Below are positions 25,616 to 59,445 of a stretch of DNA of 64,000 bases, piece by piece. Numbering within the stretch: the stretch's first letter is position 1; each line of letters begins with the position of its first letter. Origin of the DNA: Chaetoderma sp. LZ-2023a (taxonomy: Eukaryota; Mollusca; Caudofoveata; Chaetodermatida; Chaetodermatidae); NCBI GenBank assembly GCA_034401795.1, contig JAVVLW010002894.1, forward strand, positions 26,001-90,000, given 5' to 3'. The notes under the pieces are model-generated. The model was not told where the DNA came from. It did no database searches and saw nothing but the letters and a program-made list of their open reading frames with translations. Position numbers and translations under genes: made by a program.

Positions 25616-26173
25616 CTAGAGTGTACCGAATCCTGCTTTCTTGAGGTCACCTCGTAGTACGCTTAGCAGATGTATGCAATGACGTCCTCTCCTGGCTTTG
25701 TAGTTGCTGGCTCCGAGTAGGGAGAATTCCAATGGTTTCTGTGCTGGTGTCTCTTCTGGCACCCTTAGCACATGGCCAAACATAGACCATCTTTGTTGGG
25801 CGACTTTTACAGACAGCGGCGACATATTACACATCTTGTATAGTGCATCATTGGAAATTATGATGTCTGGCCATTGGTGTCCAGTGATGGTGCGTAGGTG
25901 TTTGCGGTGGCAGGAATTGAGCCTGTCTAGAGCTGCCTTTGGAGCTGCCCAGCTGCCACAGTTATACAGCATCAAGGATACGCAGGTTGCATTGTATAAA
26001 CGTAGCATCTTTATCAAGGGCATCTTTGATCTACGAAACCATAGCTTCCAGAAGGACTGGAAGGCTATGTTCCCCATGACGCAGCATGCAGAAATGTCAG
26101 CAGTACTGCAAAGCAGTGAGCCCAGGATTATTACTTTTCCTCCATGGTTCGCCGCCACGAACTGGGTCATCAT
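25616..26173 (-). pseudogene. LINE A C-terminal region
   Basis: This frame carries the post-RT segment: LYNCGSWAAPKAALDRLNSC, HRKHLRTITGHQWPD and ARRGRHCIHLLSVLRGDLKKA. Such LNSCHRKHLR...GH and RGRH...L motifs follow the RT in many LINEs. The stop at 25,616-25,618 is followed by about 90 noncoding bases and the AAT tail. Confidence 0.75.
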
Positions 26174-27128
26174 TTTCTATAGTTTCATGCTTTGTCGATA
26201 GGTATATGTGGGTGAACTCTGTTATTGATTCATTCATAAAGAGATTCTCAATTTTTAGTTTGCTTGCAGCTAATGGGAGAAGTTCGTCAAGGGGTTTCTT
26301 TTCCTTGTCTATGAAGTCCACATCGTCGGCATATTCCATCTCTAGCGGCATGCCCAGTATTGACACTGTGGCGTATGGTCTTGTGGAACTTTCCCGCACA
26401 GATTTCAAGCCACCAGCAGGGTAGCAGGTGTAAAGCACCGGAGATAGATCATCTCCCTGTGGGGAGCCGATTGATGTCTCAAACTCTACAGACTTCACTG
26501 ACTTGACTCGTACTCTCAGCTTGGTGTGTAAAAGCAGTAGTCTCACTAGTGGTAGCTCATCTTTATTGCAACTGGCTTGGCATAATACATCTAGAATCTT
26601 TGAGCATTTAATTGTGTCGAATGCTCGTGACATGTCAATGCCCATCTTGTGGAAATCCCAGTGTTTGGACTTGACTACCGACACAAGCATGCGTTGAGCC
26701 CATACAATGTCTGCACAGCTGCGTCCATGTTTGAAGCCACTTTGACATGATCCGGTGAAGTAATCGATCTTGTCTCGGATGCGGCATAGAGTAACATTGG
26801 ATAGGATTTTCTGTATGCTGTTGAGGAGCATAATGGGCTGCAGATTGGCTGGGGGCTCAGGTGGCTTCTTGGGCTTTGGTAGTGCGATAAGTGTGCCTTG
26901 GCCTACAGCGTCGATGGGAAGGTGGTGCATAAAAGCTGAATTGATTAGGTGCGTGATCGGTTTTGAGATAATGTGACATGCATATTTGAATAGTTCATTG
27001 CTCATGCCATCAGGTCCAGATGCACGCGCATTTTTCGGGGCTTTAAGTGCCTTCTCAACTTCTGCTGTCTTAATTGGTGTTAGTAATGTCCTGGGGGTCT
27101 CATGAGAACGGGGGCAAGGGCTCGTCAT
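26097..27128 (-). pseudogene. LINE A reverse transcriptase domain
   Basis: 343 codons with NARASGPDGMSNELFKYA, LQPIMLLNSIQKILS, MGIDMSRAFDTI (motif A, catalytic Asp), GSPQGDDLSPVLY (motif B) and MEYADDVDFID (YADD motif C). The ATG at 27,128 is only the first Met of this open stretch, since linker homology precedes it at 27,202-27,528. The frame breaks near 26,100. Confidence 0.85.
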
Positions 27129-27840
27129 CGTTGTCAGTGAACTGTTCCTTGAACCATTCTCGGATTGCCTCTGCTTTTCCCTGGTCAGTCCCGATAAAGT
27201 GTCATTCAGAGTTGTGTACAGTGAGTGGTGATGTGTAGTCGGTAACTCTCAGGGCTCGGGCTGCCTGAAATATTTTGTGACAGTCATCCGTGGCAATGAT
27301 TTCATCTGCTAGGGAGTCTGCCTGTTGAATAGCAAGATCTTTTAAGCATTCGCTAATGTGGCACAGAATAATATTGCGCTCCTGGCGTAGTTTGGTGCAG
27401 TCTTCACTTTGGCTAATTTGATAGATGCGCAGCCATAACGCTTTCTGCTCTGCTGACAGTTTTACTACTAGACGCTCGTCAGTATACCTAGTTTGGTTGT
27501 TTTTAAGAACACCTATGGTGCTGATCATTCATATGAAGGCGTGTAATGACTAGCTTATGGTCAGAATTGAGGTCTGTGCCTCCATATGAATGAGCATTCT
27601 GGATTAAGGGTTTTCCTTCTGTCTTGCATAGTATGAGGTCTATTTGGTTAAAGACAGCTGGTGTAGCCTTAGAACCATTTGGGCTTTGCGATCAGTAATG
27701 TGTCCAGTCCATGTCCATGTTGTCCGGTGACGGCATGGGTGTTTGAATGCCGTATTTGTGGCAAATAGGCCATTGAAACTAAGGAATGACACCAGTGCAT
27801 CTCCATTGCTGTTGCGTGTGCCCATGCATATGCCAATTCC

Positions 27841-28395
27841 TTAGCTTTTGTCCGCAATTCCGAGTTTTCCCAGCTTGGAGTTGAAATCTCCACAGATGAA
27901 CAGTTGCCATCTAGCTGGGATTGTAATGGCGGAGCTCAGTTCTACATAGAAGGAATCTAATATTGCTGGGTTCTCTTTGGCTTTTTCGGTAGTTGGGTCG
28001 TATGTGTTGACAATTCGACACTTAGTGGTGGTGTGTTTTTGCGTAGGAGCTAGGTCGATGAATGCAATGTGATCACTGATGTATCCAAAACTAATGACAT
28101 GATCCAAGACCCTTGGTCTGATTACGAAGCCGAAGACCCGGTATGTTGCCTGTTTTTGCTCCATGAGCACTAGCTTATGGCCCGTATGTAGTTGCTGTTC
28201 TGAGTGTTTAGCTACTTTAGTCTCTTGAATGCATGCAATATCGATGTTATAGTGTTCACAGTCTGCACCTAAGGTTTGCCTCTTTGATGTTGCACTCATA
28301 CCGCGTACATTCCACGTAGCTATGGTAAGTTCCTGGGAAGATTGCCTCATCCGAGGATGTCGAGCGCAGTTTCTTGTTTGAAGAAGGGTAGACAT
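27841..28395 (-). pseudogene. LINE A endonuclease domain
   Basis: The 184-residue frame begins near a Met and shows LTIATWNVRGM (catalytic Asn), CIQETK (catalytic Glu) and FICGDFNSKLG (catalytic Asp-Phe-Asn), the exonuclease-endonuclease-phosphatase signature of APE-type LINEs. The C-terminal part of the domain continues in another frame (27,640-27,893, including GHITDRK). In the family it nicks target DNA for target-primed reverse transcription. Confidence 0.85.
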
Positions 28396-38868: not shown

Positions 38869-38984
38869 TGGCATTAAATCTTAGTAAAATGATCTCTATT
38901 CACTCTGAAACATTCAAATCTGCATTAATTTTAATTTAACAAGGGGGTATGACATGAATAAATCTCATGATTCTTACTCCCACC

Positions 38985-39146
38985 TCAAGATGGAGACCAT
39001 CTCCCAGACACCAGAAGGATGTATTGAGAGTGTAGATGCTCGACCAGGAAAGCCAGCAGCAAGATGTTTTTCCCGTGTCCTGACGGGGCAATGATCAGCA
39101 CCACCTGGCTAGCATCGGCCGGCCTACTGTCGAATGGTACAGACAT
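38985..39146 (-). pseudogene. P-loop ATPase fragment of the virus-like block
   Basis: The 53-codon frame from ATG at 39,146 reads VVLIIAPSGHGKNILLLAFL. A hydrophobic strand followed by a Walker A-like loop (GHGKN, where T or S would be usual) and a helix is the nucleotide-binding signature. The position near the N-terminus and the wording resemble HerA/FtsK-type packaging ATPases of DNA viruses and Polintons, but Walker B and later motifs are absent because the frame ends at 38,985, where block-type DNA stops. It overlaps the end of the preceding gene by 23 bases. Confidence 0.55.
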
Positions 39147-39402
39147 GCGTGCGGAGGATGGTTAGCACTTGGTCGGCGGTAGCCTCGTCTATATCTGGGA
39201 GACTAAACGGCTGTACTTCCAGCACCAGCTCTTGCGCCTGCAGAGCGGGGAATCCTGCACCTCCGGCGGATACGAAGGATGCAATGGAGGCGTCGAGCAT
39301 GAAATCCCAGCAGCAGCTGTGAAGATAGCGTACAGAGCCTGTGTCTGCACCCACAGTGTCTAGTACATCTAGTATCTGTATGATACATGCACAGGAAGCC
39401 AT
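39124..39402 (-). CDS. Small hypothetical protein of the block, 92 aa
   Basis: Starts with MASCACIIQILDVLD two bases after the stop of the upstream gene, so the start is well placed. Contains a Gly/Ala turn (SAGGAGF) and an acidic SLPDIDEATADQVL segment. No domain recognised. It overlaps the ATPase fragment at its 3' end. Possibly intact in this copy. Confidence 0.5.
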   Translation of the reverse strand: MASCACIIQILDVLDTVGADTGSVRYLHSCCWDFMLDASIASFVSAGGAGFPALQAQELVLEVQPFSLPDIDEATADQVLTILRTHVCTIRQ

Positions 39403-39404
39403 GA

Positions 39405-40125
39405 CTATCCTGTGGTCTTAAGCGACAAACCAAAGAACCCTGACTTCTTCACCTCTGGTAGTCGGAGGCTGGCGGTAGCACCTGTTTGGCCGTCGACCGT
39501 GATATGGCTCAGGCCGAGGGTGCCTATCTTGAGATTCTCTTCATCCTGTCGGAATGAGCTCAGTGGTTTCAGGAGATCCGTAACCAGGTCCTGTGCAAAG
39601 GACACAGCCGTAACCGTGATGGCTCCAGCCTCATCGACTCCGAGCATCGTCGCCCTCTCCTTGATGACCATCCCCTTGTATAGTCTTGACCTTGTTAATG
39701 GCCGATTGTCCTACCATATCAGTGTTCCCGATGAGATCTCGGGCTGGGATGGTACCTCGGATCTCCCGCGGGTCTCCCTTCTCATCAAAGTCTAGGAAGG
39801 AGATAGGGGCAGCCTCGCCCAAGTGAGCAAGATCGCCTAGCTCTTTGCTTTCTAGGTCTGTGAGTGACAGAGTCATAGTCATATACAGATGGCTTAAACC
39901 TACTAGTCATACCCCCAGTGAAATAGTTGGGCATAGGAGGCCCACGCAGTCGGCCAAGGGAATAGGTAGCAGTGCTCAGGGTACTGGCCCTCTGCAGGGG
40001 CACGCATTGTGGGCGGTCCACCATTCCCGGGCATTGGCGATCCTCAGTCCGCGTTGCCGACTATGGGCTACACACCGCCCTCCGGCACACCATGCCTCAT
40101 ATGCTGCAGGGGTCTCATGATCCAT
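39405..40125 (-). pseudogene. Hypothetical gene of the block, broken by frameshifts
   Basis: Four overlapping minus-strand frames (39,976-40,125; 39,785-40,024; 39,631-39,882; 39,405-39,671) cover the segment without a gap. Each opens where the previous one loses coherence, which suits one gene with about three indels or several overlapping genes. Recognisable parts are a Pro/Gly-rich N-terminus (PPMPNYFTGGMTSRFKP), FLDFDEKGDPREIRGTI, and a C-terminal part with GLSHITVDGQTGATASLRLP. The last reads like a beta-rich domain of unknown function. Confidence 0.45.
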
Positions 40126-40144
40126 CTCTCACTATTCAAAGGGA

Positions 40145-40423
40145 TTAAATGTAGGCGACGATCTCGGCCATTGCACTCGTTGCTATCCCTAGAACCGCGG
40201 CCTCCATTAGTGTAACACATTCACCCATGATTTTGGCGGCAACAGTGTAGGAGGCATCACTGAGGGTGATCTTTGGGATGGGGTGAGTTATTCCGAGACA
40301 GTGCCCGGCCACCCCACTCACCACTGTAGCGAGGACAGCCGCAGTGGCAGCAGGAAGAACCTCATTTCCCCCTGTCATCTTCACCACGGCCACATGGACT
40401 GCCAGAGGTTTTGCTTTGGTCAT
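40145..40423 (-). CDS. Hydrophobic protein of the block, 92 aa
   Basis: Intact frame from ATG at 40,423. Ala/Val-rich helices at residues about 22-45 (VLPAATAAVLATVVSGVAG) and 72-92 could insert in a membrane or pack as a helical bundle. It starts 18 bases after the preceding stop and ends 19 bases before the next ATG, as in a polycistronic viral cassette. Function unknown. Confidence 0.55.
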   Translation of the reverse strand: MTKAKPLAVHVAVVKMTGGNEVLPAATAAVLATVVSGVAGHCLGITHPIPKITLSDASYTVAAKIMGECVTLMEAAVLGIATSAMAEIVAYI

Positions 40424-40441
40424 TAACTTCTGTGTCTTGGT

Positions 40442-40606
40442 TCACAGCAGGTTCTCCACCTTCTGAAGACTCGCCTGGCTCTCGTCATTGTTTAAGCACT
40501 GAGTATACAACGCGGTTATACGTCTGCGTCCCCTGTCGCGAGAGCTAATAAGATCATCCCAGTCTGCGTCTGCCAGGTGGCCGGGTTGGTACTCAGGAAT
40601 ATTCAT
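40442..40606 (-). CDS. Small acidic N-terminus / basic-centre protein of the block, 54 aa
   Basis: ATG at 40,606, stop TGA at 40,442-40,444. Reads MNIPEYQPGHLADADWDDLI, then a basic RDRGRRR cluster and a C-terminal helix. Placed head to tail with the hydrophobic protein. No family recognised. Confidence 0.45.
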   Translation of the reverse strand: MNIPEYQPGHLADADWDDLISSRDRGRRRITALYTQCLNNDESQASLQKVENLL

Positions 40607-40627
40607 CTCTATTGAGACATCTTAAAC

Positions 40628-41062
40628 ATGTCCGGGCTCACGCTATGCGAGAAGTAGCTCTCCAGTGCTGAGCTGACAGAGGAGCTGACAGCTGTGAAGC
40701 TCTATCTAGGATTTGGCAAGGGACAGATCTGCTTCCTCGAATACCTTATCATGGGCGGGAGTATCGGCGAGCAGCTCCTGTGAGCTAAAGGTTTCTACAA
40801 GGATCGAGAGTATCTGTCAGATGTGTTCCAGCAGTTGCAGCCCACCATGGCCTCACCAGACTCAGAGCTGAACAAGGCTCTGCGATACTACAAGCTGGAA
40901 AAAGGATGCGCTGCCGAACCCTCCAGCCCTTGGATGTGCATGTTGGTAGCGGGTATAGGGACTGTAGGGCATGCCAAGCTGGTTCAGTGGCTCACCGTGG
41001 TCCCCACTGCTACTGTAGAGAGTCAGGATAGTCTTATAGCTGATTTGCTAGCGGCGGAGTAG
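40628..41062 (+). pseudogene. Plus-strand gene of the block with two in-frame stops
   Basis: From ATG at 40,628 the frame runs 145 codons to TAG at 41,060-41,062, interrupted by TAG at about codon 10 and TGA near codon 52. The 40,823-41,062 part (79 codons) is open. Contains KLYLGFGKGQICFLEYL, DVFQQLQPTM and an uncharged WMCMLVAGIGTVGHAKLVQW stretch. It starts 21 bases from the divergent ATG at 40,606 and overlaps the end of the convergent gene at 41,048. No domain recognised. Confidence 0.5.
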
Positions 41063-42111
41063 GTTGATCCCGAGCGCCACGATAGCTAGGCCTGACACCA
41101 CACGTAGAGCTACCACGGGAAGCGGTGTCATGTCGACTGGCTGCGGTGTCGGGGCGCCTGGAGCTGCCGTGCCGACTGGCTGCAGTGTCAGGGTCGGAAC
41201 GACTGTATGGCCCGTACTACGCGTAGGTACATTGATGTCAGTGTTGAAGCCGAAGTGGACACCGGGGGAACTCCCCTCGACTATCATGTTGTTATAGCCC
41301 CTGACTTGGAGGTTCACGATCATTTTGCTTGGAATCAACCGTAGTGGTGTGGTGAAATAGCAAAGTCAAGTTTGCGATGGGCCTTCTGCAACCTCTGCTG
41401 GAACTTAGCAATAAGACTACTGGGGTCTGCCACGATGATCATATCCTCAACGAGACTGATGAACATGGCCTGGACCTCTGCTCTGCTGACACCATCTATG
41501 GAATGCCGCAGATGGGTCTGTGCCGTAAGGAGGCAGTAGCACAGTGCTTCCAGGGACTGGTTGATCCGAACGATCCCTGCTGGTGTGAGGCCTGAGATGG
41601 TGTGTGGGGCAAAATACTTCCACACATCTGGATAGTCCTGCCGCAAGCCAGTGATGTGCATATTTTGCACCAGCACTCCAGGGTCGGAGTCTGGATCGAA
41701 TGAGAATGTCGCTGTCTTCCGACGGCCTACTCATCGGGGGTTCGATAGGGGAATCCTGAGTAGTCACGTCTCGGGTCACTGTACATAACCTCTAGACCGC
41801 TGTTGTCACCACCATGCCACCGATAGTCTGGGTGAGCGCTGAACTCTCTGTAGTCTGCTGGCCGCTGAGTACCTATGACGGTTGAGCTGTGGGTCGAAGG
41901 CATTTGTATCAGGGAGGCTTGCACCAAGCTCATGGAGGATTCGTCGCACCATGAAGTACACGTGGAATCTGAGACAGCTGGCGATGAGCACAGCTTCAGG
42001 AGTACCAGAATAGGAGTGAAGCAGGGTGGAACTTACTCCACATCCTGCCGTGGCACACCACACGGCAAAGTTCAGCTGCTGATTCCAGTATGAGAGGCTT
42101 GGAGCAGCCAT
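41048..42111 (-). pseudogene. Conserved invertebrate virus-like protein family, frameshifted copy with C-terminal TM
   Basis: Starts MAAPSLSYWNQQLNFAVWCA, then TAGCGVSS and RFHVYFMVRRILHELG. Homologous sequence continues in new frames (about 41,727-41,933, 41,335-41,676, 41,048-41,338), including GLTPAGIVRINQSLEALCYC, KLDFAISPHHYG, VRGYNNMIV and a final hydrophobic helix VVALRVVSGLAIVALGI. At least three frameshifts. I recall this signature set (WNQQLN.AVWCAT.GCGVS, then FHVY..RRIL) from uncharacterised predicted proteins of cnidarians and other invertebrates, but cannot verify it here. Candidate structural protein. Confidence 0.6.
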
Positions 42112-42165
42112 CCAAGTATGAGCTTGCTTCGCATCCTTGATGGTGATGGGGCGGTTGGTCAGCGG

Positions 42166-42330
42166 TCATGGGTTGACAGAGAAGCTGGTTCGGGACCGTC
42201 CATCCACTGTGATGGAGAACGGTGTTAGCTCTGGTATATCATCCAGTAGACCTCTCAGGCCAGTCAAGGGTGTACCCAGGAGGGGCGGTTGGCTCCGGAT
42301 GACTGTCGTGAGGGTCAGTGGGAAGGCCAT
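42166..42330 (-). CDS. Small hypothetical protein of the block, 54 aa
   Basis: ATG at 42,330, stop TGA at 42,166-42,168. Starts MAFPLTLTTVIRS and ends FSITVDGRSRTSFSVNP, a beta-type composition. It lies between two better-supported genes on the same strand; spacing supports a real frame. Confidence 0.45.
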   Translation of the reverse strand: MAFPLTLTTVIRSQPPLLGTPLTGLRGLLDDIPELTPFSITVDGRSRTSFSVNP

Positions 42331-42344
42331 CTATACTGGCATTC

Positions 42345-42986
42345 TTAAAGCTTATGGCAGCACACTATTTGTAGTCGTCTCAACTCCAGAGACCAGTCGC
42401 CTCGCCGTAACATCTCGTTTTTTAACTCCTCCATATCAATCCGCCCGCTGGAGCCTTTGAGGTATTGCTGTCGCACTTTAGGTTTTTCTGTGCGGTACAG
42501 GGCTTGGACCTTCAATATATGGTGGTACTGTTCATCGGTGACCTGGCCATCCTCGAGAGCTTTGCTGACAGACTCGTCGATAGTTTGAAGCATACTCTGT
42601 GCCAGTGCCACATACTTAGCATGCTTCTCCAGCCGCCTTGTGATCTGCCGCTGCCGCACCCCCAAGCCTGTGGCCAAGACAGTGGCGGCTAGTGTCACGC
42701 CACCCAGTGGGATGATGACCATGGTCCCAACCCCTGTGGCGAGAGTGGCCACAGCTGCCACCCCAGCACTGGCTCAAATCACACCTGCAGCAGTGGTTGT
42801 ACGCGCGAGGACTTTGTAGGCTGTCTTATATCGCCTGCGCGTTCTGCTGTACTTTTCTGCCTCATGGCCGAGATTCTGTCTGGTTTTATCTATCTGCTGG
42901 AGTCGCCAGCCATGGATGGTACCGCCCTCATCAGCCGTCAGGGAGGGGTATATTTCTGGTTGCTTCCGCCAGTCTGATTTTGCCAT
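42345..42986 (-). pseudogene. Hydrophobic hairpin plus coiled-coil protein with one in-frame TGA
   Basis: ATG at 42,986 opens 70 codons to a TGA at 42,774-42,776. The same frame then continues uninterrupted to 42,345 (213 codons in all). Parts in order: basic N-terminus; Ala/Gly hydrophobic segment with VATLATGVGTMVIIPLGGVT and TLAATVLATGLGV (a membrane hairpin); a helical part with KHAKYVALAQSMLQTIDESV and DGQVTDEQYHHILK. The layout of a paired hydrophobic segment then a coiled coil suggests a membrane-active or penetration-type structural protein, but this is inference. I believe relatives exist as uncharacterised invertebrate proteins. Confidence 0.6.
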
Positions 42987-43000
42987 GGTATACCTGGAGA

Positions 43001-43657
43001 TTAAACCTGCATCTCCTGCAGAACCTGCTCATGAGTCCTAGAAGGGTACATTTTGGAGAGCCTGGCGAACTGTGCCAGCTTGCTGGTTTCGAGACAGACG
43101 TCTCTTAGACAGAGGTCATCCAGCACTATGTTGGGTCCCAGTAGCTTTCTGAGACGTGACATATGGAACTTCACCTTATGACCAAGATAGTAGGTCCGCC
43201 ACTGGATGGCTTTCTTGGTCTTACACTTCTGCGCCATCTCCTCTTCCCACTGTATGACATCTGGCTCATCCTCGTGTGTGAAGACACCTGGATCATCGTC
43301 GTATGTGAAGACATCTGGCTCATCGTCCCGCTTACTCTCTGGCTCACCCTCGTCCGCAGTCTCCGCTGCATCGTCCGCGGTCTCCGCTACATCTGGCTCA
43401 TCGTCGTATGTGAAGACATCATCCCATTTACTCTCCTCCAGGAGGGCCTGCCAGTATCGGGAACCTTCACTGTTCCTTCGCCTCCTTGCAAGGCTCGCGT
43501 TCTCTTGATACCAGTTCTCCCGCTGTAGTCGCTCTCCTTCTTGTTGCAGTGCGAGCCTCTGTTCGTTTAAGGCCTTTATCTGTGCAGGGGTCATGAAGGG
43601 GCGAACCTCTTTCTTCATCATCTCGGCCAAGGTCAGATAATGCTGGTATGATATCAT
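43001..43657 (-). CDS. Acidic-repeat, helical protein of the block, 218 aa
   Basis: Intact frame. The ATG at 43,657 overlaps the stop of the upstream gene in an ATGA. N-terminal helix (KALNEQRLALQQEGERLQREN), then imperfect repeats of DEPDVFTYDD at about residues 80-140, then a basic helical C-terminus (HKVKFHMSRLRKLLGP). The acidic repeat is probably disordered. Ends 15 bases before the next ATG. Function unknown; a scaffolding or DNA-associated role is possible. Confidence 0.6.
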   Translation of the reverse strand: MISYQHYLTLAEMMKKEVRPFMTPAQIKALNEQRLALQQEGERLQRENWYQENASLARRRRNSEGSRYWQALLEESKWDDVFTYDDEPDVAETADDAAETADEGEPESKRDDEPDVFTYDDDPGVFTHEDEPDVIQWEEEMAQKCKTKKAIQWRTYYLGHKVKFHMSRLRKLLGPNIVLDDLCLRDVCLETSKLAQFARLSKMYPSRTHEQVLQEMQV

Positions 43658-44042
43658 GTTGTTGTCAGGTCAATGAGTAATAAGAGTGTAAACTCTAAAT
43701 GGGCATCTGATATCCCATCCGTGCTGGCATATATGTTAATGGAGGGGCTATCAAACAGGTGATTTACAGGTGTGAACAGGCTAGGACTGATAGCTTTCCA
43801 TAGGTTGCTGTTGGCACCTGGGAGATACTCTATCACATCCCGGCCAACTTCTACCAGTGAGCTGCTGTGTGCAGTGCCCGGAGCTTGATGTAGCACATCG
43901 GCGTGTGTGTATGTTGTGCCCCACCTCAAAGAGGACCCATTCTACATGGTACTGTACCACCCGTCTCCCCTCTAGAGAGGGTGAGATTATGTTCTCACCA
44001 CCGGAGAGCAGCAGTCGGACAATCGGTATGGTTATATGTCTT
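43654..44042 (-). pseudogene. Beta-rich protein of the block, frameshifted, no intact start
   Basis: The downstream frame (43,654-43,929) has EVGRDVIEYLPGANSNLW and SPSINIYASTDGISDAH. Upstream, a different frame (43,925-44,042) reads HITIPIVRLLLSGGE and VVQYHVEWVLFEVG. The two join by one indel near 43,925. No ATG precedes the upstream part; a TAA sits immediately before it. Strand-rich composition suggests a jelly-roll-like or other beta structural protein, without proof. It is divergent from the plus gene at 44,068 with about 25 bases between. Confidence 0.5.
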
Positions 44043-44067
44043 GTTTAAACCCCTCCTATAGCGTGCT

Positions 44068-45102
44068 ATGGAACCCATATTTGCTCACTCGACTGGTCTT
44101 GCTGACCTGGCAGATGTGTAGGCAGTTGATGCTGCCAAGGTAGAAGAGAGCGATGGCAAGTCATTCACCATACAGTAAGAAGCAAGCTCAAAGGCATTCT
44201 CCCTCCACCCCATTGGTGGTGATGGGGTGGAGCTGCTCACAGACCTCAAGGATGTGACGAAGGAGTGCCAGGGTCGCAACATAGATGGCCACAAGATCAT
44301 GTCTCGGTACGATTTCCCGAAGAGGAAGTACATCCTCAAGCCATTGATTGAGCTCTCGGATACAGAGGTGGCAGACATCAACACCCTAAATAACGACCTC
44401 AGCTTTCATCTGGTCAAACCCTATTCGAGCGGGGCCCCGCCGATGGCCCATGATGGCCTGCTATTGACCCTGGCAAAAAACCTGCAATTCATATTTGAGA
44501 AGAATGAAGTGTGGTCCCGCGCTGGACCTGGGGGTGACTGCCAAACATGGTTGCCCCTATATAGGCCTCCCGCAGACATTGACATAGGGGTTACTCCCCT
44601 CTCCACTGTTGTGAAAAAGGATGGGACAGTTCGAAAGCTCTACAATCAGGGATCATCCTTCCTCACCTACATAGGTGAAGGTGTCACACTGACAAGGGTG
44701 GGTCACCGGATCGGGGTTACAGGTGGAAAGCTCCTGCTGCGTCATCCATTCGATGGACCAGAAGAAGCTGTTAACCTCCAGGAGGGCACCCTACGGGTAG
44801 ATGGTGTGTCACATGTCTCCAAAGTCAAGGGTGCTGTTAAACTGCTTCAGCGAGTCGGACTCACTAGCCCGCAAATGACTCATATAGTCCTAGAGCTACG
44901 TTTCTTAGCCGGTGGCAGAGTGAAGCAGCTAGCCCCTGCCCCTGAGGGGATGAAATCACTATCGATCCGGATGGAGCAGGGCTCAATCTGGCACAGATAT
45001 TTCTCCAGGGGTTCACTCTGTTCAGTTTACTTCTTCATATATAGCCATGATTCTCATCATACTGCTCATGCTGGCGTCTACAGCAGTGGCACAGGGCACT
45101 GA
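44068..45102 (+). pseudogene. Largest plus-strand gene of the block, two in-frame stops near the start
   Basis: ATG at 44,068 gives MEPIFAHSTGLADLADV, then TAG at 44,119; TAA at 44,176 follows in the same frame. After that the frame is open for about 308 codons to 45,102. Segments include HKIMSRYDFPKRKYILKPL, DINTLNNDLSFHLVKPY, PLYRPPADIDIGVTPLS, GSSFLTYIGEGVTL and QMTHIVLELRFLAGG. A mixed alpha/beta soluble protein of about 345 codons that I do not recognise. In position and size it could be a capsid or DNA-processing gene. Confidence 0.55.
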
Positions 45103-45344
45103 GACTGCCATGATATTGGATGCCAAGTGGGCCCACTTCCTGGATAACCCCCCAGTACAATCCTTGGGTCGACCCCTTGCGGAGAAACATTTACGACCGC
45201 TTTCATCCACGTAAAGAGATCGAGTCTGTCTGCCACTTCTATGGGGTGGAGAGGGTAGGCCGTGGTTGTCTGCTGGGGACCCAGGCTGCTCAGCACCAGA
45301 TTCTGTGCGTAACATGTCAGAGTCTGCCGTGGTTCAAATGCTAA
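45047..45344 (+). pseudogene. Secreted, Cys-rich small protein of the block, frameshifted
   Basis: ATG at 45,047 starts a clear signal peptide (MILIILLMLASTAVAQ, cleavage after AVA) in one frame. Near 45,180 the sensible frame changes to that of 45,120-45,344, reading IYDRFHPRKEIESVCHFYGV and CVTCQSLPWFKC. One indel explains this. The mature part would be Cys-rich. Overlaps the previous gene by 56 bases and the next by 31. Confidence 0.5.
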
Positions 45345-45490
45345 TCACTTTAGCCTCCTCCCCAGTGAGCGTTGTCAAGGTAGATGGAAGCGCCTATTGG
45401 TGGTCCCATCATGCCGATGCGACTCTGGCAGAGACTACGTGTTTGTCTGAGCCTACACAGAATAGAGAGAGAGACCGGCCCTGTGGTTGA
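45314..45490 (+). CDS. Small hypothetical protein of the block, 58 aa
   Basis: ATG at 45,314, stop TGA at 45,488-45,490. Reads SAVVQMLITLASSPVSVVKV and VDGSAYWWSHHADATL. Last plausible frame before the terminal repeats. Weakly supported. Confidence 0.3.
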   Translation: MSESAVVQMLITLASSPVSVVKVDGSAYWWSHHADATLAETTCLSEPTQNRERDRPCG

Positions 45491-45549
45491 TGGCGATCAG
45501 TGATGTATATCACTGTGGAGGCTTGTCTCTAAATGGGCGTTCAGACCCT

Positions 45550-45925
45550 GGTAGTAGTAGTGTGATACTACCTCCCTGGCAGCCATTCAGCGATCCGTGG
45601 TGGCCCCCGCAACCTATGCCCCAGGGATTGAGAGGGCGGTGGTATCATTAGTAGTAGTGTCAGGATTAAATTGATACAACCTCCCTCGTTCGGCGATCCG
45701 TGGCCCCCACCGCCCTCTCAATCCCTGGGGCCTCCATTTAGAGGCATACCAACCTCCTGTCTCAACAACCCTGAGCCTCCATCTAGAGGCATACACCAAC
45801 CACATGTCTCACCAACCTATGCCCCAGGGATTGAGAGGGCGGTGGGGGCCACGGATCGCCAAACGGCGGCCAGTTGAGGGAGGTGGTATCATTTTGACCC
45901 CGACACTACTACTGTATATAATCGT
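45550..45925. repeat. Complex inverted repeats at the right end of the virus-like block
   Basis: 45,692-45,730 and 45,822-45,860 are perfect 39-base inverted repeats (GGCGATCCGTGGCCCCC ... and complement) around a 91-base loop. Outside them, GATACAACCTCCCTC on the left matches the complement of GAGGGAGGTGGTATC on the right. A third partial copy with CAGCGATCCGTGGTGGCCCCC and GGGATTGAGAGGGCGGTGGTATC lies at 45,569-45,650. AGTAGTAGTGTCAGG motifs recur, inverted at 45,900-45,915. A palindromic terminus like this suits a hairpin or terminal repeat of a linear DNA element. Confidence 0.85.
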
Positions 45926-45950
45926 ATATAACATAATGAAATGTGTTGCC

Positions 45951-47120
45951 ATCTCAATCAGTTAATCCCCAATTAGACACCTTGCATTCTTTGCATTGTG
46001 AAACAATATCATACTTATATAGGAGCTGACAGGGGGTGGGGGTGTTGGCAGGGGGGTGGGAGATTTTGTATTATAACACGTACGAGGCAGCAGCATCTCA
46101 GTTAAATTGATTTCCAACTGTTCAAAAGTTACATATACCCATATATAGAGTCCAACTCATATTAACAGACCATCCAAAGGAGAATAGAGCTTCTCACTTA
46201 AACCTTTAACACTCCAATTCTGTACCCCTGGAATGACTAGCTCGGTACCTGAGCCAGTCGTTACAGTGATAAATTAAAAAAAAATTCTCTTGGTCTGCAT
46301 ATGGACATTTTCTATGAGAAATTAAAAAATTTCTTCAACCACTTTGAGGGTTAGAGTTATATTGTACCCAGACATAGCAAGAATACTGCATCAGTGACAA
46401 AGGCTGCAATGGTGTTTCGAAGTGTTCATTTGCAGGCCAAAGAGAAAACTATTTTTGAAAATGTATCACTGCCAGTCATTCCAGTGATACATTTTCATAA
46501 AATAGTCTTTACTTGGCCTGGAAATAGACATTCCCTGATCAAAATACATGTCAATTTTCAATCAAAGAGTAATTATAAGTTATGTTTTGACATATTTTTA
46601 TGCAGTAGAAATTATTCATGATTATTTAATGATTTAATTTTTAATCATATAAAGTCACGATTTAAAAATTTTTCCATTTAATCACATAATTGTGAAAGCT
46701 TACTCTTGGCCTGCAAATGAACATTTAATAAGTATATATGTATTTTAACCCGACCCTGTTTGACCATTAAATGTTGAATATTGCATTTATTTATTTTGAC
46801 AAGCTTTCACACATACCGTACAGCTCGTAAATAAGTCAACATGTTTACAAAATAAACTAAAAATATGTTAGTGGGTGCAATTTTGAACACGATGTGCGAA
46901 ATATTCTTTTGAATATTTTGGACCTAATTCGATGATTGGAAGCCATTTATGTTCAAAATATTCAACTGACCCTTCCTTACTAACTAACATGTTTATGATT
47001 TTGTTCTGGAAAAATCTATTTATGAGCTGTATTGGAAATATGCTTCAGGGCCATTTTATGTTTTCTTATTTATCATTCCAGGTGAAATAAGCAAATAAAT
47101 CAGAAGTATCATTTTCGCTT
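45951..47120. other. AT-rich DNA with decayed MITE cores
   Basis: Type 1 cores at 46,225-46,300 and 46,428-46,530, the latter with perfect arms around CACTGCCAGTC-ATTCCAGTG, and a type 2-like palindrome at about 46,905-46,970. No gene recognised. Confidence 0.5.
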
Positions 47121-51633: not shown

Positions 51634-51647
51634 ATTCTCCTTCGATC

Positions 51648-51804
51648 AATACTCACCATTCTGTTACTTCTGATATACAGCTGGCCTTGACAGCGGCTCT
51701 AGGATTATAGACTTAGAAAGCTTTACCGACTCCTGGGAACCGGGTACTCGGCTCCCAACTGCCGAGTACCCGTTTACCATAGAGCTCATTCTTGTTTGCA
51801 TAGC
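51648..51804 (+). repeat. DIRS left inverted terminal repeat
   Basis: Begins AATACTCACCATTCTGTTAC and runs to GCATAGCAAC; reverse complement of 61,858-62,015 with few differences. It contains an internal stem CGGGTACTCGG...CCGAGTACCCG at about 51,741-51,771. Confidence 0.93.
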
Positions 51805-51921
51805 AACAAGAGCAATACATGCTTTCTGCATTGAGGATTTTAGTGTTTTTTGTGAAAGAAAATCTACGTCTTTAATCTGTGATAGTTTGTGTGTTCGTGA
51901 AAGGATTAACTAAAGGATACT

Positions 51922-51948
51922 ATGGAGAATACCACCGAAGATAACCAG
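51922..51948 (+). CDS. DIRS gag, predicted short first exon
   Basis: ATG followed by MENTTEDNQ and a CAG|GTTGTA donor. Phase 0, joining to GCC at 52,720 after TTATGTTATAG. The second DIRS element has the same design (17 codons ending in Gln, then CAG|GTGTAC), which supports a real spliced leader exon. Confidence 0.4.
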
Positions 51949-52719
51949 GTTGTATCGTTCTTTATTATCCATAGTTAAAAGACTTAGGTCTCTAAATTTC
52001 GCTGTGTCGCATGTTCCAATTTCTGATCCCATAGAATCTGGGACGTGTGCTAACAACGATATATGCCAGACGATCGCCTTCTTTAACCCCCAACAGGCGA
52101 TCAGCAGATATGAAAATAGGTGTTATGCTACGGTATTTCTAACACGAATATCGGCTGACGTCGTTCTCCGTAGGATCCGAGCGGGTGACGTCACACCCGG
52201 TCGCTCGGATGTTTATGTGAAGAAAAATTTTTCATTAATTCGCGCATCTTGTTCTGGGTGCTGCGTACTAAAAATGGTACCGGAAACTTTAGAATGATCA
52301 AGTTTACGTGCGATCACGATCGGTTTGCAATGATCGGTGGTTTCAAAATTCTTGAGTAGATGCGTGGTCTGCGGTTTTACCGTGTGATACAGCAGTTTGT
52401 TATACATTTTGTTGTTTTCTTCACATATCGTGCTGCTTTCGTTAGGAGTATAATTTATATTGATTAGTAAATATACCCTGAATGCTATGCGATATGATTC
52501 CTGGAGCCGTTACACATCCTGGAGGATCTATTATGGGTGTGTTTAATGCCCGCCTCGTTCTTGTCGTCATAATCAATGCGATCTTTGTTGTAACGTGGTG
52601 GGGTGGGGTGCGGGAGGGTTACAGTTAATTTATGAGTCAAATTATTTGAAAATTAATTGTCTGCCTTCCATCCGGGTCTCGTTCCGCTTGTTTATTGTAG
52701 GTTTGTGCTTATGTTATAG

Positions 52720-54827
52720 GCCAAGCCAGCCCCGCCATCATGTGACAAATGCCATAAGTTTGTCCGTGTCGTGTTCAAGGACCATGTCTGTTTTAGGTGT
52801 TCCCTGTGTAATATTGATCATAGGTGTAATGTTTGTGCAGTGTGGTCCGTTGAGATGATGGTTAAGTTCCTTGCCAGGAGGACTTGGCTGGGTCTGACGC
52901 GGGGTCAGGCGATCCGAGAGTAAATCGTGGAGCGCCCGGTTCGGCCGGTGGGGGTGCTCCACGTCCCCAGCTGGAGGTGGCGGAGATGGCACCGCCGGCG
53001 TGGTTTGGTCCGGCTGTGCAGGGTTTTTTCTGCATAGCGTTCTGCCCACGCTGGTGTCGTCCCTGCTACCAAAGGTTGGGGGGCAGTTTCTCCCCATGCC
53101 TGGTACGGATCCTGTCCTCGGACAGGATTCTGGACTGGTTACCGAGGGGGCCGTCTCGTACGGCCCCCTGGCAGTCCCGTCTGGCTTCGGCCAGACGGGT
53201 TTCTGTTTCTCTGCGGCCACCTCCGGGTGGTCCAGTAGCGGTGGCCGGTCCGTCAGGTGTGGGTTCCACGGTTGACTCGTCTAGTGACGACTCTTCGGAG
53301 TCTGAAGACGAGGAGGCCGAGGAGGAGAGGTTGCTGCGGCCCGTGAAGCCGCAGGTGGAGAATATGGAGGTTGATTCCGTCCTGAACGGAACCGGCCTCC
53401 ATTTGTCTGGTTTGGCGCAAGCCAGGTCAGCGGCTCCGCCTATGGCTGAGGCAAATCCGTTACCGTGCACCGGTTCCGTGCGGCTTGGTTTGGCACCAGC
53501 CGTCACGGGAACGGGTGTGCCGGGCCGGGCGTGGTACTCACCTATCTCGCCTGGTCCGGCAGTCGGACGTGGGGTGCCATTGGCGCCTGTGTCCGGCTAT
53601 GGTTCCGCGACTGCTACGGGTCCGTACGGTTTTCCGTGCGGACCTACCCCATGGACCGGAGTGTTTCATGGGGTGGCGGCGGAACCGTGTGGTACCGGAG
53701 TGCCTGGCGTGTCAGCCGTGGCTCCTTGCCGGGAGGCCGTGGCTGGCAGACCCGTGAGCACGTCAACGGGTGACGTGTTTGCGGGAGTGTCTTCATCGGA
53801 GGTAGATTGGTCAGATGCTCTGGCGTGGCTAGCCAGGGTTGACCCGTCTGTGGTTTCGGCCACGGCCGATGAAGATGCGCCCCGTCCGTCGGTTGCGTCG
53901 ATTAGGACGGGGATTTTGCCCGCGGCCCGGATCCAGTCAGTGGGACTGGATCCACGGTTCATAGATTTGTTGGATGCTATTTATAGCAAACAACTAATGA
54001 CCAAGGGTCAGCTCCCTGCGGCCTCCAGGGAGGTGCGGGCAAGATGTCGTATTCCGCGGGGTGAATACGACAGGTATGGTGTAGTCCCGTCGGTCACGGA
54101 GGATGACCGATGGGTACTGGGAGTCCAGAGTGCCGGGTCGGGTGGCCCTGGTCCGGCACTAGTGGATAAGTCCCAGGTACACCAGGAAGAAGTCCTGTCC
54201 CTATGCGATGAGGGTGTGAGGGCAGCGATGAGCGCTGTCAATCACTCTTATCGTCTCCTTCAGTCGGTGTGGGCTGAAGCGGGGGCAGGCCACCCTGTGC
54301 CACCTGTGGCGCTCTCATGTGTTAATGACGGCTTGGTGCTGTCAATGGACGCATTGGCAAGGGTGCAAGCGCGAGTGACGAAGTCCAGGAGGCAAATGGT
54401 CATTGACCATATGCGTCCGGCTACGGCAGTCAGGGAGCGTCTTCTTGGGACGCCCCTGACAGGGCCTAGCATCTTTGGTGGCCAAGCGCGGGCCATCTTA
54501 CAGGACATCGCCAGTATCGCGCAGAATCGGTTAGCGGTAAACCTACAGCTAGAGCTAGTGCGGCAAGCGCACGCACTAGGGGCTGTGGGGAAACCGCTAA
54601 CGGGACAGCCTTCAAAGAAGCATAAGAGCAAGGCGAAAGCCAGGCCTGTTGTGACTTCTGCTTCAGCTGGGTTCTCGGAGCCGCCGCCGGCGAAGAAGCC
54701 CGGGAAGGTTGTAGAGGCGGCTACCCTCCCCAATGTTGCTCCTGACCGCCCTAGAGGCGGGAAGGGCAAGGGGAAGGGTAAGGGTAAGGCCTTAAAGGGC
54801 GGACAGAAGGGGCCGAAGCGTACCTGA
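52720..54827 (+). pseudogene. DIRS gag-like protein, frameshifted near 52,880
   Basis: From 52,720 the frame gives CDKCHKF, VCFRCSLCNIDHRCNVCAVW, a Cys-rich zinc-binding region, then MMVKFLARR. One base later the frame changes to the long frame of 52,884-54,827. That part is Gly/Pro rich, has an acidic DSSSDDSSESEDEEAEEE cluster, a helical core (FIDLLDAIYSKQLMTKGQLP; AILQDIASIAQNRLAVNLQL) and a Lys/Gly tail (GKGKGKGKGKALKGG). Gag packages element RNA in this family. Confidence 0.8.
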
Positions 54828-54884
54828 GGGTACGCAAGCTCCCTTCATATCTGCCTGGACCGCGCCTGTGCGACAGGAAAAGCG

Positions 54885-56133
54885 GTGCCAGTTATACCCG
54901 TCGTGCCTAGAACGAAATGGTTCTCACTCTCTTTCGTTAAGAAAGAGGGGGGGGGGGGGGGGCGGACTGCGAGCCGGACAACCCCGTTAGACGTCGAGGC
55001 GTCTATGGTGGGTGGAAGGCTCATGCGTTTCGTCGAGGCCTGGCGAGGTGTGACGTCAGACAGTCTGGTCCTGGGATGGTTATCCCAGGGTTACATGCCG
55101 GAGTGGTGGGACTTTCCACCACAAAATCTGTCTTTGGCACCTGTCTGGACACCCGTACCAAGGGAGCCAGACAAGTTAGAAGCCGTTCAAAAGGAAGTGT
55201 CGGGTTTTCTTCTGAAGGGAGCAATAAAACCAGCAAACCGGAACACTCCAGGCTTCTATTCAAACATGTTCCTTGTCCCCAAGAGCACAGGGGGATGGAG
55301 ACCCATACTCAATCTCAGGCCATTAAATTGGTTTATCCATACGCCTCGGTTCCAGATGGAAACGCCGAGGTCGGTAATGGCGGGATTGAGGAAAGGAATG
55401 TGGTGTGTATCGATCGATATTTCCACATTCCGATGAATCGGAGTTGGCACAGGTTTCTGAGATTTGCGTTTCAGAATCAAGTATGGGAGTTTACAGTTCT
55501 CCCGTTTGGCCTGTCGACAGCTCCGAGGGTTTTCACAAGAGTGGTCCTTGCGGTGACAGCGTTTCTCAGAAAAGAGAACGTGGCGCTACACACCTACATA
55601 GACGACTGGCTGCTCAAGGCAGACTCGGCAGCCAGGTTGAACGTGGATACTGCTCTGACTCTGAAGTTACTTTCAGATCTAGGCTGGATAGTCAACGAAG
55701 AGAAATCCGAGTTGACGCCCACTCAACATTTCGTTTATTTGGGGATGCGATTCGACCTCGAGGAGGGCAGGGTTTAACCGTCAGAGCCCAGAGTGGTGTC
55801 TCTGTTAGCCATCCTCAGGAGTTTTCGAGTGGGAAACCACATTCAGGCGAGGCGGTTCCTTCAGATGCTGGGCATGATGGTCTCCATGGAGCAGGTTATC
55901 CCGTACGCTGCTCTAATGCGAAGACCTATCCAGTTGTATCTGATGTCTCTGTGGAAACAGAGAACAGAACCCCTGTCAAAACTGGTGCCAGTTTTGGAGC
56001 CGATAATATCGCATCTTCTATGGTGGAAACAGCGTCAGAATCTCCTAATAGGGGTTTCGCTGCACCTACCCCACCCCCAGCTGTCCGTCTACACGGATGC
56101 ATCGCTGGAGGGGTGGGGTGCCTGCCTGGGAGA
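54885..56133 (+). pseudogene. DIRS pol, reverse transcriptase and start of RNase H
   Basis: RT motifs in order: NTPGFYSNMFLVPKSTGGWR and ILNLRPLN (54,885-55,436 frame), then after a shift near 55,420 FRFLRFAF-like sequence, VLPFGLSTAPRVFTRV (motif B) and HTYIDDWLLKA (YxDD, motif C). A TAA at 55,775-55,777 lies in frame; the frame then continues into RNase H with VYTDASLEGWGA at 56,090-56,125, where the hAT element interrupts it. A G homopolymer at about 54,947-54,962 is a further shift risk. These motifs are of the DIRS/Ngaro type. Confidence 0.9.
56126..56133 (+). repeat. hAT target site duplication, left
   Basis: CTGGGAGA, repeated at 59,446-59,453. Confidence 0.93.
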
Positions 56134-56336
56134 CAGGGTTGATAAAAATCATGATTTTTTTTATAAAAATCAAAAAAATCGGATTTTTTTGATTTTAATC
56201 GATTTTTTTGATTTAAATCAGATTTTTATAACCATGTTTTTTATATTACTAATTAATGATAAGATATGCAATTTTAAGTCAATTTAATTAATTTATTTCA
56301 AATCAGATCAATATAGTTATACATGTATATGATGAT

Positions 56337-57748
56337 TCATTTGTTAAGTAACTTGTAAACAAAAACAAGCTTGCCAGCTTTCTCAGTACCAAGACGGTTT
56401 CTCACTTTTGAATGCACAAAACCAAAAGTTGAGAATATTCTCTCAACACCTGCACTAGAGGCAGTAGCACCAAGTATTGCATATATCATGTTTAGCACAT
56501 GGTCACTGACTCTGTCTGATAGAGATTTCCACCAGGCAAAGGGAGACACAGATTCCAGAACAGATGAACTAAACAAGTAATCCTTAAATGGATCTGCTCT
56601 GGCCCGGTAGTTCATGATTATAGGTATCATGTCTGGGGATGACACAGACACATACTCCATCACACTGTCAGTTTCCTTGGTAGACAATCCTTTACCAGCA
56701 GTACGCGGATCCAAAATATAGGCGAGATAGTGGGCAGGAGTGAGTGCCTGCTTACATCGTTCGTGGAACTTCTTCATAATGCTTAATGATACCCCACCTT
56801 CTTCAAAGTCTTTTTCCAACTTCTTCCATACACTAACTGCATCACTGAGAAAACAGCTATCACTCTGTACTATATCCAGGGCAATGGAGATTGGCTTAAG
56901 GAGCCTCAAATAGTCCTCTGCTTGTCTCTTTATCCCAATATTTTGCACTTTACTAGCCACATTTGTGTCTATACTATCCCTATTTTCCTCACACACTTTC
57001 AAAATGATGGACCAGTTATCCAGGTAGCACTGAAGGCAGTCAGCTAGCGTATTCCAGCGGACATCTTGTGGTAGGACGAGTCGCTTGCCTCCCTCTGCCT
57101 TGTACCATGCTGCTGGTAAATGTGTATTGCGAAAGTACTTCACAATCTGTGTGACGTGTTCCTTAACACCCTTGATCTCTATGTCATGAGCAAGTATGTT
57201 CATGAGGTGGGCTGAACATCCATGGGCAATAATGTCTTTGTGGTCTTTCTTCAGTTCTTCACGCATCTTACGCATGTTAGCCGCATTGTCAGTTACAATG
57301 CTACCTATGTTACATTTAAACTGTTCTTCGCAATGTTTAATAGCACTACTAGCAACCTGTTTCATGTACTCAGCAGTGTGACTGTGGCCTGAGGTATCCA
57401 CAGTCTCAGTAAGATAGGAATCACCATCCGAAGTGGTTACAGAGACACAAACTACAGGTTCATTATGTATATTACTCCAACCATCTAAACACATGGAGAC
57501 AGTCTTGCCTTCAAGCCTTTCTTTACACTCATCCTGCAGTGACTGCTGAACCTTGTCCAGTAAACTACCGGCTACTTCATACCGACTTGGTGGGCAGTAG
57601 CCTGGTCTCAGCATCTGGACTAGTTTAATGAACTCTGGATGTGTGACTGCAGAGAATGGTGTGTTAGTAGCGTACACGTAGCGACCGACTTGCTCATCGA
57701 TGGCGTCTTTCTCAATTTGGGATGTTCTCAAAACATAGTGGTCTAGAC
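56337..57748 (-). CDS. hAT transposase, exon 2 (catalytic and dimerisation domains)
   Basis: Acceptor TTTTATTTTGCAG ends at 57,749; the exon starts in phase 1 and is open for 470 codons to TAA at 56,337-56,339. RNase H-like fold signatures: MCLDGWSNIHNEP (first acidic residue), IVTDNAANMRKM (second) and SSAGVERIFSTFGF (third, Glu in VER). The C-terminal KVRNRLGTEKAGKLVFVYKLL is the hAT dimerisation motif. No internal stop, so the protein may be intact. The open frame continues upstream to 57,812 only because intron sequence happens to be open. Confidence 0.92.
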
Positions 57749-57760
57749 CTGCAAAATAAA

Positions 57761-58260
57761 ATATTACTGTATCAGCCAGGAAAGGTAGACACATGTGGGA
57801 TAATGTTGACATTAGTGTGCTAAGGGTTAACTGGCTGACTGCTCTGAGCTACTTGAGAATAGTTTCAAGCTGCATTACTCAAAACCTGCTAAATAGTGTG
57901 AAAACAATATAACTCAAAGTTGTTGGTGATTTATTCACCAAGAAGTTTCAGTCAAATTGTTTTCAAAATATTCAAGTAAATTTTTTTAGTTATTAATTTA
58001 GCAATATTACTGTTTCAGCCAGGAAAGGTAGACACATGTGGGATAATGTTGACATTAGTGTGCTAAGGGTTAACTGGCTGACTGCTCTGAGCTACTTGAG
58101 AATAGTTTCAAGCTGCATTACTCAAAACCTGCTAAATAGTGTGAAAACAATTTGACTGAAAGTTGTTGGTGATTTACTCACCAAGAAGTTTCAGTCAAAT
58201 TGTTTTCAAAATATTTAGTAGTTTTTAGATGAGTCTCACTATAGTTTTCTGACATAAATC
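57761..58260. repeat. Tandem duplication of about 245 bp in the hAT transposase intron
   Basis: ATATTACTGT(A/T)TCAGCCAGGA through CTAAATAGTGTGAAAACAAT occurs at about 57,761-57,910 and 58,007-58,150. Each copy is followed by a type 3 hairpin. The first copy overlaps the exon 2 acceptor region. Confidence 0.85.
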
Positions 58261-58692
58261 TTTTTAGGAATTTGGGATTAAAATTACAGTACTATGCAGT
58301 GATAAGGTTAATGTGTCCAAATTAAGCCAATTAACTACCTGACTGCTTAACTGTTATGTAACACCACAGGTGTTATCACCTCACACAATCAATAAAGGGG
58401 TCTGCTCTTGAACAACACTGCTGTCCTATAAAGATCTCACAGTAATAGACTAACTAAGGTGGTAACCCTTTGATTGCCTTGTTTATTTAATTTATTTTTA
58501 AATAAGGCAGTGTATTTGTTTGCAAAATTATTTAACTGTAGAAAACATATAGACTGTAACTGAAGGATTAGCTATTAATCAGTTTTAATTACTTGGTCAA
58601 GAGTTAGGCTGAGTTAGTGTGTGGTCTGTCGGTCAGATTATCAGTCTGTTTGTCAGTTAAATTTTTATTCACAAAATATTATATTCTCTTAC

Positions 58693-58960
58693 CTGCACTG
58701 ATTTTGGTTCTCTTGGTAGGCATACACAACGGTGATGACTCCCCTGCCTCTGGGGCAGGGCGCTTCCTAGGCGTAGAGACTGTTATTGCTGGTGTATCTT
58801 GTGTATCAGTCTTACATTCACTATGATGCTGCTTCATACGTGCTACTATGCCTTGCATAGATTTGCCACATTCTTTACACTTAGCCTTACAACCAGATTT
58901 ACCAATCTCAACATCCTTATCAAAGTACATCCAAATGTGATCTTGCTTTCTTCCAGGCAT
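58693..58960 (-). CDS. hAT transposase, exon 1 (BED zinc finger)
   Basis: ATG at 58,960 (MPGRKQDHIWMYFDKD) leads into a BED finger: CKAKCKECGKSMQG, then RMKQHHSEC, giving the C-x2-C ... H-x(4-5)-C ligands. It ends at GTGCAG|GTAAGAG, phase 1, and joins exon 2 in frame, giving about 559 residues. BED fingers bind the transposon ends in this family. Confidence 0.9.
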
Positions 58961-59445
58961 CTTAACTTATTTTGAACAAATGATGAGTTAAGAAACATTC
59001 TATTTGCTTATATGTACTGTGGGATTCAATGTGTTTTCTTAACCTGGCTGCATGTAAACCAGATCTCTCTTACACGAGTGCTGTCTATGTTTTTTTATCC
59101 ATCAATGTCCATCAGTTTACATACATTGTTTATCAAAGTCAGAGAAAGGAGTTAGCCTGAATGTTTTGATAATCTAGCAAAGTCTGGGCAGTAAATGGGG
59201 ATAATGGGGTTATAGTATCAGGGACAGAAGCAACACCTATAAAACAACTGTGAGGCAAGGTCAAAACAACAGTTTTTAAAGGTTATTGGGTGTATACAGA
59301 TGAAATAAAGCAAGTAATACAATATGATGATTTTATTAAAAAAACACTGACTTTTAAAAAAATCGCATCATGATTTTTTTGGACTGATTTTAATCATGAT
59401 TTAAATCACTGATTTTAATCATTTGATTTAAATCAAACAACCCTG

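Follow-up and report, generated by a model that had tools for sequence, protein, structure and literature searches.

A gene-dense block in the genome of the mollusc Chaetoderma is almost certainly a decayed copy, truncated on its left, of an abundant Polinton/Maverick element

Adintoviruses are Polinton-related animal viruses with a polymerase, an integrase and small structural genes, and Polinton-like viruses and virophages are small double-stranded DNA elements with a packaging ATPase and jelly-roll capsids that occur mainly with protists. For Polintons themselves, the available part of one study (PMC4028283) gives a length of 15-20 kb, an FtsK/A32-type packaging ATPase identified in 83%, an adenovirus-type protease in 74%, and, in more than 80%, a major capsid protein of the double jelly-roll type that is either intact or split. 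Vertebrate Mavericks, in the available part of a second study (PMC8097293), have the end motif (AGT)2//(ACT)2 and consist of two modules, with the polymerase, ATPase, PM and PZ on one strand and the integrase, capsids, PW and protease on the other. The DNA analyzed here is a stretch of 64,000 nucleotides from Chaetoderma sp. LZ-2023a (assembly GCA_034401795.1, contig JAVVLW010002894.1, positions 26,001 to 90,000), referred to as the window. It contains a compact block at positions 39005-45913, oriented on the plus strand like fuller copies elsewhere in the genome, which is almost certainly what remains of one copy of an abundant Polinton/Maverick element after decay and loss of its left part. 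The block is thus the right-hand fragment of a known kind of element, its left half missing, and does not have the status of a new virus family. Its edges lie slightly inside the span of 38950-45950 given initially, with an offset of at most about 60 bases.

The genome (2.44 Gb in 2753 contigs) was searched for related copies. All copy numbers are lower bounds, since only the best candidates were scored, and they count the query's own place. Ten other copies, a non-random set chosen for the most part because they matched well or had open frames, were fetched and compared with the block. Each of the ten aligned with it over several stretches, with a nucleotide identity of 84-96%; six reach the edge at 39005, and three are aligned to within 3 bases of 45913. 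To the left of 39005 the match to the window ends, and the copies run on and match one another. Six copies were extended further left, and integrase-region sequence was found in each. Copies with a polymerase, which the initial annotation had proposed to look for, were recovered within the same genome: polymerase sequence, integrase sequence and a left terminus are present in four of the six (L019/L011, L021/L016, L022/L014 and L023/L018). The remaining two (L020/L009 and L024/L012) contain only a piece of the integrase region followed by other sequence. The integrase matched the Pfam family rve (PF00665) with 38.8 bits against a cut-off of 32.6 (E=1.2e-9). In the PDB it matched 7z0h_W, a chain named Integrase (E=0.0034), and more weakly the Rous sarcoma virus (RSV) integrase (E=0.092). 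NSAYGK and DTDS, which we take to be polymerase motifs, are visible in the polymerase frames.

The ends of the copies have the form AGTAGT.../...ACTACT, with (A)GTAGTAGTGTC at the left and GACACTACTACT at the right. The terminal motif was seen at the right end of seven of the ten copies; L009 ends in an altered form, and the left end of L021 is without the first A. The four copies in which both ends were read all have (AGT)n/(ACT)n ends and terminal inverted repeats (TIRs). The TIRs could be aligned over 443 bp at 92% in L021/L016 and 267 bp at 88% in L022/L014. In L019/L011 the alignment covers 185 bp at 86% and a further piece of 30 bp, and in L023/L018 it is limited to 44 bp and some scattered pieces. 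The divergence within a copy is 8-14% where at least 185 bp were aligned. The right TIR of the window copy (45500-45913, minus strand) ends in the same GACACTACTACT; when it is aligned with the left terminus of L021 in inverted orientation, the identity is 88.7% over 442 columns. L023/L018 is flanked by a perfect 6-bp target duplication, AGCCCT. The flanks of L021/L016 are TGTGGC and TGTGGT, identical at five of six bases, those of L019/L011 have a 5-base match only, and no duplication was seen around L022/L014, where the left end lies inside an AGT run. The termini of the four copies are 14.2, 16.3, 15.4 and 17.2 kb apart, compared with the 15-20 kb of Polintons in PMC4028283, and these lengths were taken as support for a Polinton. 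As the copy termini fit the motif given for vertebrate Mavericks in the available text of PMC8097293, they were counted in favor of a Polinton, and the block was filed under this group because the fuller copies have the main features of Polintons.

The block had initially been described as belonging to an unknown family without Polinton genes. This description is overturned by the fuller copies in the same genome, which carry the rve integrase, type-B polymerase and an ATPase frame together with (AGT)n/(ACT)n termini, TIRs and one perfect 6-bp target duplication. The accompanying statement that no integrase or polymerase is visible is true of the block itself, but it does not indicate a non-Polinton element, since the left half has been lost. 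A so far undescribed family of endogenous DNA viruses without relation to Polintons would agree with the absence of any block frame at a Pfam cut-off and with the single database relative of the largest gene. Such a family is nevertheless extremely unlikely, given that the rve integrase, type-B polymerase, ATPase-like frame, Polinton-type termini and TIRs are contiguous in four of the six copies read leftward.

Several results weigh against a Polinton/Maverick assignment. One polymerase piece matched DNA_pol_B_2 (PF03175, E=2.9e-5) with 23.6 bits, which is under the cut-off of 25.8, and a PDB search with a polymerase piece gave no match; a second piece had no DNA_pol_B_2 match in Pfam. The ATPase frame in L009 has a visible P-loop and matched Pox_A32 (E=9.9e-4), again with a score under the cut-off (19.1 against 22.8 bits), and its best PDB matches were designed armadillo repeat proteins, none of which fits. 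Searches of Pfam, the PDB and the protein collection confirmed no capsid gene; the capsid candidate L023:492-1685 had no match in any of the three, with 7998 candidates scored in the protein collection. Minus-strand frames of 180 to 398 amino acids (aa) lie between the integrase and the ATPase of the fuller copies, a position where capsid genes might be expected, and sequence searches gave no confirmation that the frames of this interval encode capsids. Among viral contigs, no relatives were found for the integrase, the polymerase, the 325-aa gene described below or two queries of the coiled-coil family. The target duplication is imperfect in three of the four copies. Moreover, the arrangement differs from the two-module layout of vertebrate Mavericks in the available part of PMC8097293: here the integrase and ATPase frames are on the minus strand and the polymerase is on the plus strand, with further plus-strand genes at the right end. 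Finally, no adenovirus-type protease was recognized in the element family, where a divergent one could be missed. Absence of the protease would not exclude membership, because it is reported in 74% of Polintons in the available part of PMC4028283.

With 150 of 242 candidates scored, the genome yielded a single hit to the protease family PF00770, at C11:216133259, which is outside the listed copies. The protein encoded there had no match among 3402 frame fragments taken from the block and 16 loci. This place belongs to a second virus-like element, L037 (G000:C11:216128300-216138200), which has other short frames as well, one of them integrase-like by eye, and which seems to be a different element from the family in the window.

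The block was also found on contig C1284 at 99.9% identity, and on C15 the left part of the window locus is present with an identity of about 97.3% until an assembly gap of 500 N begins. The three sequences are probably versions of one locus, with the contig of the window and C1284 probably being unplaced versions of the C15 locus. The chromosome version, L034 (G000:C15:131983500-131993400), halts in the 500-N gap directly after window position 39406. The sequence to the left of 39005 is another repeat, present at no fewer than 40 scored places including the window locus. In L028 and L029, both of the other copies that were read, this repeat stops at positions equivalent to 39004-39008, and no Polinton DNA comes after it. 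The left flank was accordingly rejected as a part of the element. We infer that the left half was removed by insertion of, or recombination with, the left-flank repeat, and the block has no integrase or polymerase because this half was lost at 39004. On the right, the 153 bases beyond 45913 were found, among 40 scored places, only at the window locus and in the C1284 version. A short interspersed repeat lies just right of the element, at 46067-46359, and occurs at 38 or more other scored places at 87-91%.

That the left neighbor is itself a repeat ending at 39004 could be taken as a sign that the window shows a non-autonomous Polinton derivative, amplified in this shortened state. However, the lack of Polinton sequence after the repeat in L028 and L029 makes the junction look private to the window locus and its C15 version, and the copies compared upstream of 39005 run into common Polinton sequence; multiplication in the truncated form is therefore very unlikely. 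The window copy is immobile by itself, because it is missing the polymerase and the integrase and most of its frames are broken. No further piece of at least 200 bp matching the interior of the fetched elements was found in the window; the matches listed fall outside the elements, in other parts of the fetched loci.

The element family is abundant. The largest frame of the block (44179-45099, plus strand) had at least 129 scored matches in the genome at 78-100% aa identity, its own place and C1284 included, and the integrase had at least 116, including the query. Over 44179-44958 the divergence of the ten copies from the window is 4-7%, and elsewhere it is greater. L010 and L017 are about 24% different from the other copies in the polymerase region and about 8-12% in the block, a mosaic pattern of subfamilies that are perhaps recombinants. 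The mean ratio of nonsynonymous to synonymous substitution rates (dN/dS) of the largest, 325-aa gene was 0.62, with a range of 0.37-0.98 (pairwise, six open copies of eight loci tried), and that of the integrase was 0.53 (three open frames of four tried). These values show past constraint at most, because the sampling favors open copies and biases them downward. The openness of the largest gene in many copies, together with its mean dN/dS over the six open copies, might suggest host genes domesticated from a Polinton. Domestication is hardly credible for a high-copy family whose frames in the window are mostly broken, and a dN/dS lowered by the choice of open frames fits the decay of copies that were once functional.

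The description of the block as compact and richer in GC (guanine plus cytosine) was borne out. The GC content of 39005-45913 is 53.5%, compared with 40.0% in the remainder of the window, and open frames are more numerous than in first-order Markov shuffles. ATG frames of at least 60 aa numbered 27 (mean 14.7 and maximum 24 in 100 shuffles), and those of at least 100 aa numbered 8 (mean 2.7, maximum 7). The excess is weaker for frames of at least 150 aa, of which there are two, a level reached in 4 of 100 shuffles. At 267 aa, the longest ATG frame is above the maximum of 253 aa over 200 shuffles. A compact, virus-like mobile element is likewise supported, no match to a host protein family being found above the Pfam cut-offs; none of 20 stop-to-stop window frames reached its curated cut-off. 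Host genes were rejected as an explanation in the absence of a Pfam match at cut-off and in view of the high copy number of the block.

Frames were grouped into genes by comparison with the ten genomic copies, and this sequence comparison suggests about ten gene remnants plus an ATPase stub. The count of about 14 genes made initially was too high because several frames are pieces of one gene and the six-frame list includes antisense frames. Seven of the roughly ten genes are broken in the window. Of the gene types named at the outset, the P-loop ATPase fragment is present as a stub at the left edge (39005-39127, minus strand) that corresponds to the N-terminus of a packaging-ATPase gene, with a Walker-A-like APSGHGKN and a longer frame in L009. 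The hydrophobic-hairpin or coiled-coil protein and the acidic-repeat protein were also recovered. As for the secreted Cys-rich protein, a signal-peptide-like frame is present on the plus strand, as judged by eye.

Next to the ATPase stub, a small 92-aa gene (39127-39402, minus) is open in the window and stop-free in L009, L011 and L016 at 82-90% aa identity; it had no Pfam match above cut-off. It is followed on the minus strand by one or two broken gene remnants at 39408-40060, where a 191-aa frame of L016 spans 39408-39906, and by a broken gene for a small hydrophobic protein at 40148-40620, with homologous frames to 40148-40441 in five and to 40441-40620 in six of the ten copies. Part of a plus-strand gene lies at 40784-41059 and has frames of 178 aa in L016 and 181 aa in L012. 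The three or more minus-strand window frames at 41051-42340 (upper edge approximate), which end in a C-terminal hydrophobic tail, are probably parts of a single gene: L015 reads in frame across the upper junction, and L014 and L016 across the lower. None of the ten copies is fully open over this gene, and L014 and the window have a stop at the upper junction.

The hydrophobic, helical (coiled-coil) protein gene at 42348-43028 (minus) is split by a stop and belongs to an unnamed protein family, represented in the protein collection by 20 proteins (best E=1.3e-30). Its 142-aa window frame gave a three-helix model of moderate confidence, with a mean predicted local distance difference test score (pLDDT) of 66.5 and a predicted template modeling score (pTM) of 0.40. 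Also on the minus strand are the acidic-repeat protein of 218 aa (43004-43657), which contains repeat units and is open in the window, and a small gene at 43657-44044 that is split in the window, both pieces being spanned by a 130-aa frame of L016. The largest gene (44068-45044, plus) encodes 325 aa from an ATG in L013, L016 and L018. In the window it is broken by a stop near the start and a frame change near 44958. Its one relative in the protein collection, P0001 (Joint Genome Institute (JGI) source, on a 6.7-kb contig), is 63% identical over 78% of the query; a structure model of P0001 built from two sequences had a mean pLDDT of 27.7 and was discarded. The small signal-peptide-like protein gene at 45047-45455 (plus, right edge approximate) is broken as well, with frames of 135 aa in L013 and 119 aa in L016, and its best Pfam match (E=0.03) was below cut-off. 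Pfam searches with nine copy frames and one database relative gave nothing above cut-off, and in the PDB neither the 325-aa gene, nor the gene at 41-42 kb, nor the capsid candidate had matches beyond chance level. Weak matches to K-cyclin, KorB, RTX, SBSPON_C and designed armadillo repeats were not used.

By analogy with the family, the type-B polymerase of the full element would replicate the element's DNA, and the retrovirus-type integrase would insert the linear product by way of the AGT.../...ACT ends, producing target duplications of 6 bp. Particle building and DNA packaging would probably be the task of the ATPase and the small genes on the minus strand. We infer protein priming and capsid formation, as well as the role of every gene in the window. 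No mechanism beyond the known way of life of Polintons was found. It is possible, though doubtful, that the copies represent a divergent Polinton clade that has no adenovirus-type protease and carries an extra plus-strand module at the right end, made up of the 325-aa gene and the small secreted protein, with almost no known relatives. If so, particle assembly or entry may work differently.

Other mobile elements occur in the window. A retroelement at 51635-61125, DIRS-like by eye, has a reverse transcriptase (RVT_1, 2.1e-13) at 55076-55774, and a minus-strand hAT transposase gene (56340-57812) interrupts the element; a relative in L020 is without the hAT interruption. A GIY-YIG endonuclease frame (6869-7594, E=7.2e-5) may come from a Penelope-like element. 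Long interspersed nuclear element (LINE)-like remnants span 26100-28395 on the minus strand, with a reverse transcriptase at 26100-27128 and an endonuclease at 27844-28395, and a further reverse transcriptase frame lies at 17150-17740 on the plus strand.

The locus illustrates that a gene-dense block resembling an unknown virus can turn out to be the truncated end of an abundant Polinton, with the diagnostic genes situated immediately beyond the break. With over 100 scored matches, a seemingly mosaic structure and several genes without relatives in the searched libraries, the family adds to Polinton diversity. It resembles Polintons/Mavericks in its rve integrase, type-B polymerase, ATPase-like frame, TIRs and (AGT)n/(ACT)n ends, and also in its 6-bp target duplication, length of 14-17 kb and small, packed genes. 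It differs from them in that no protease or capsid genes were recognized in the family, and it differs from adintoviruses in that no adenain-type protease was found. Unlike Polinton-like viruses and virophages, the element is present in high copy number, with Maverick-type ends, in an animal genome.

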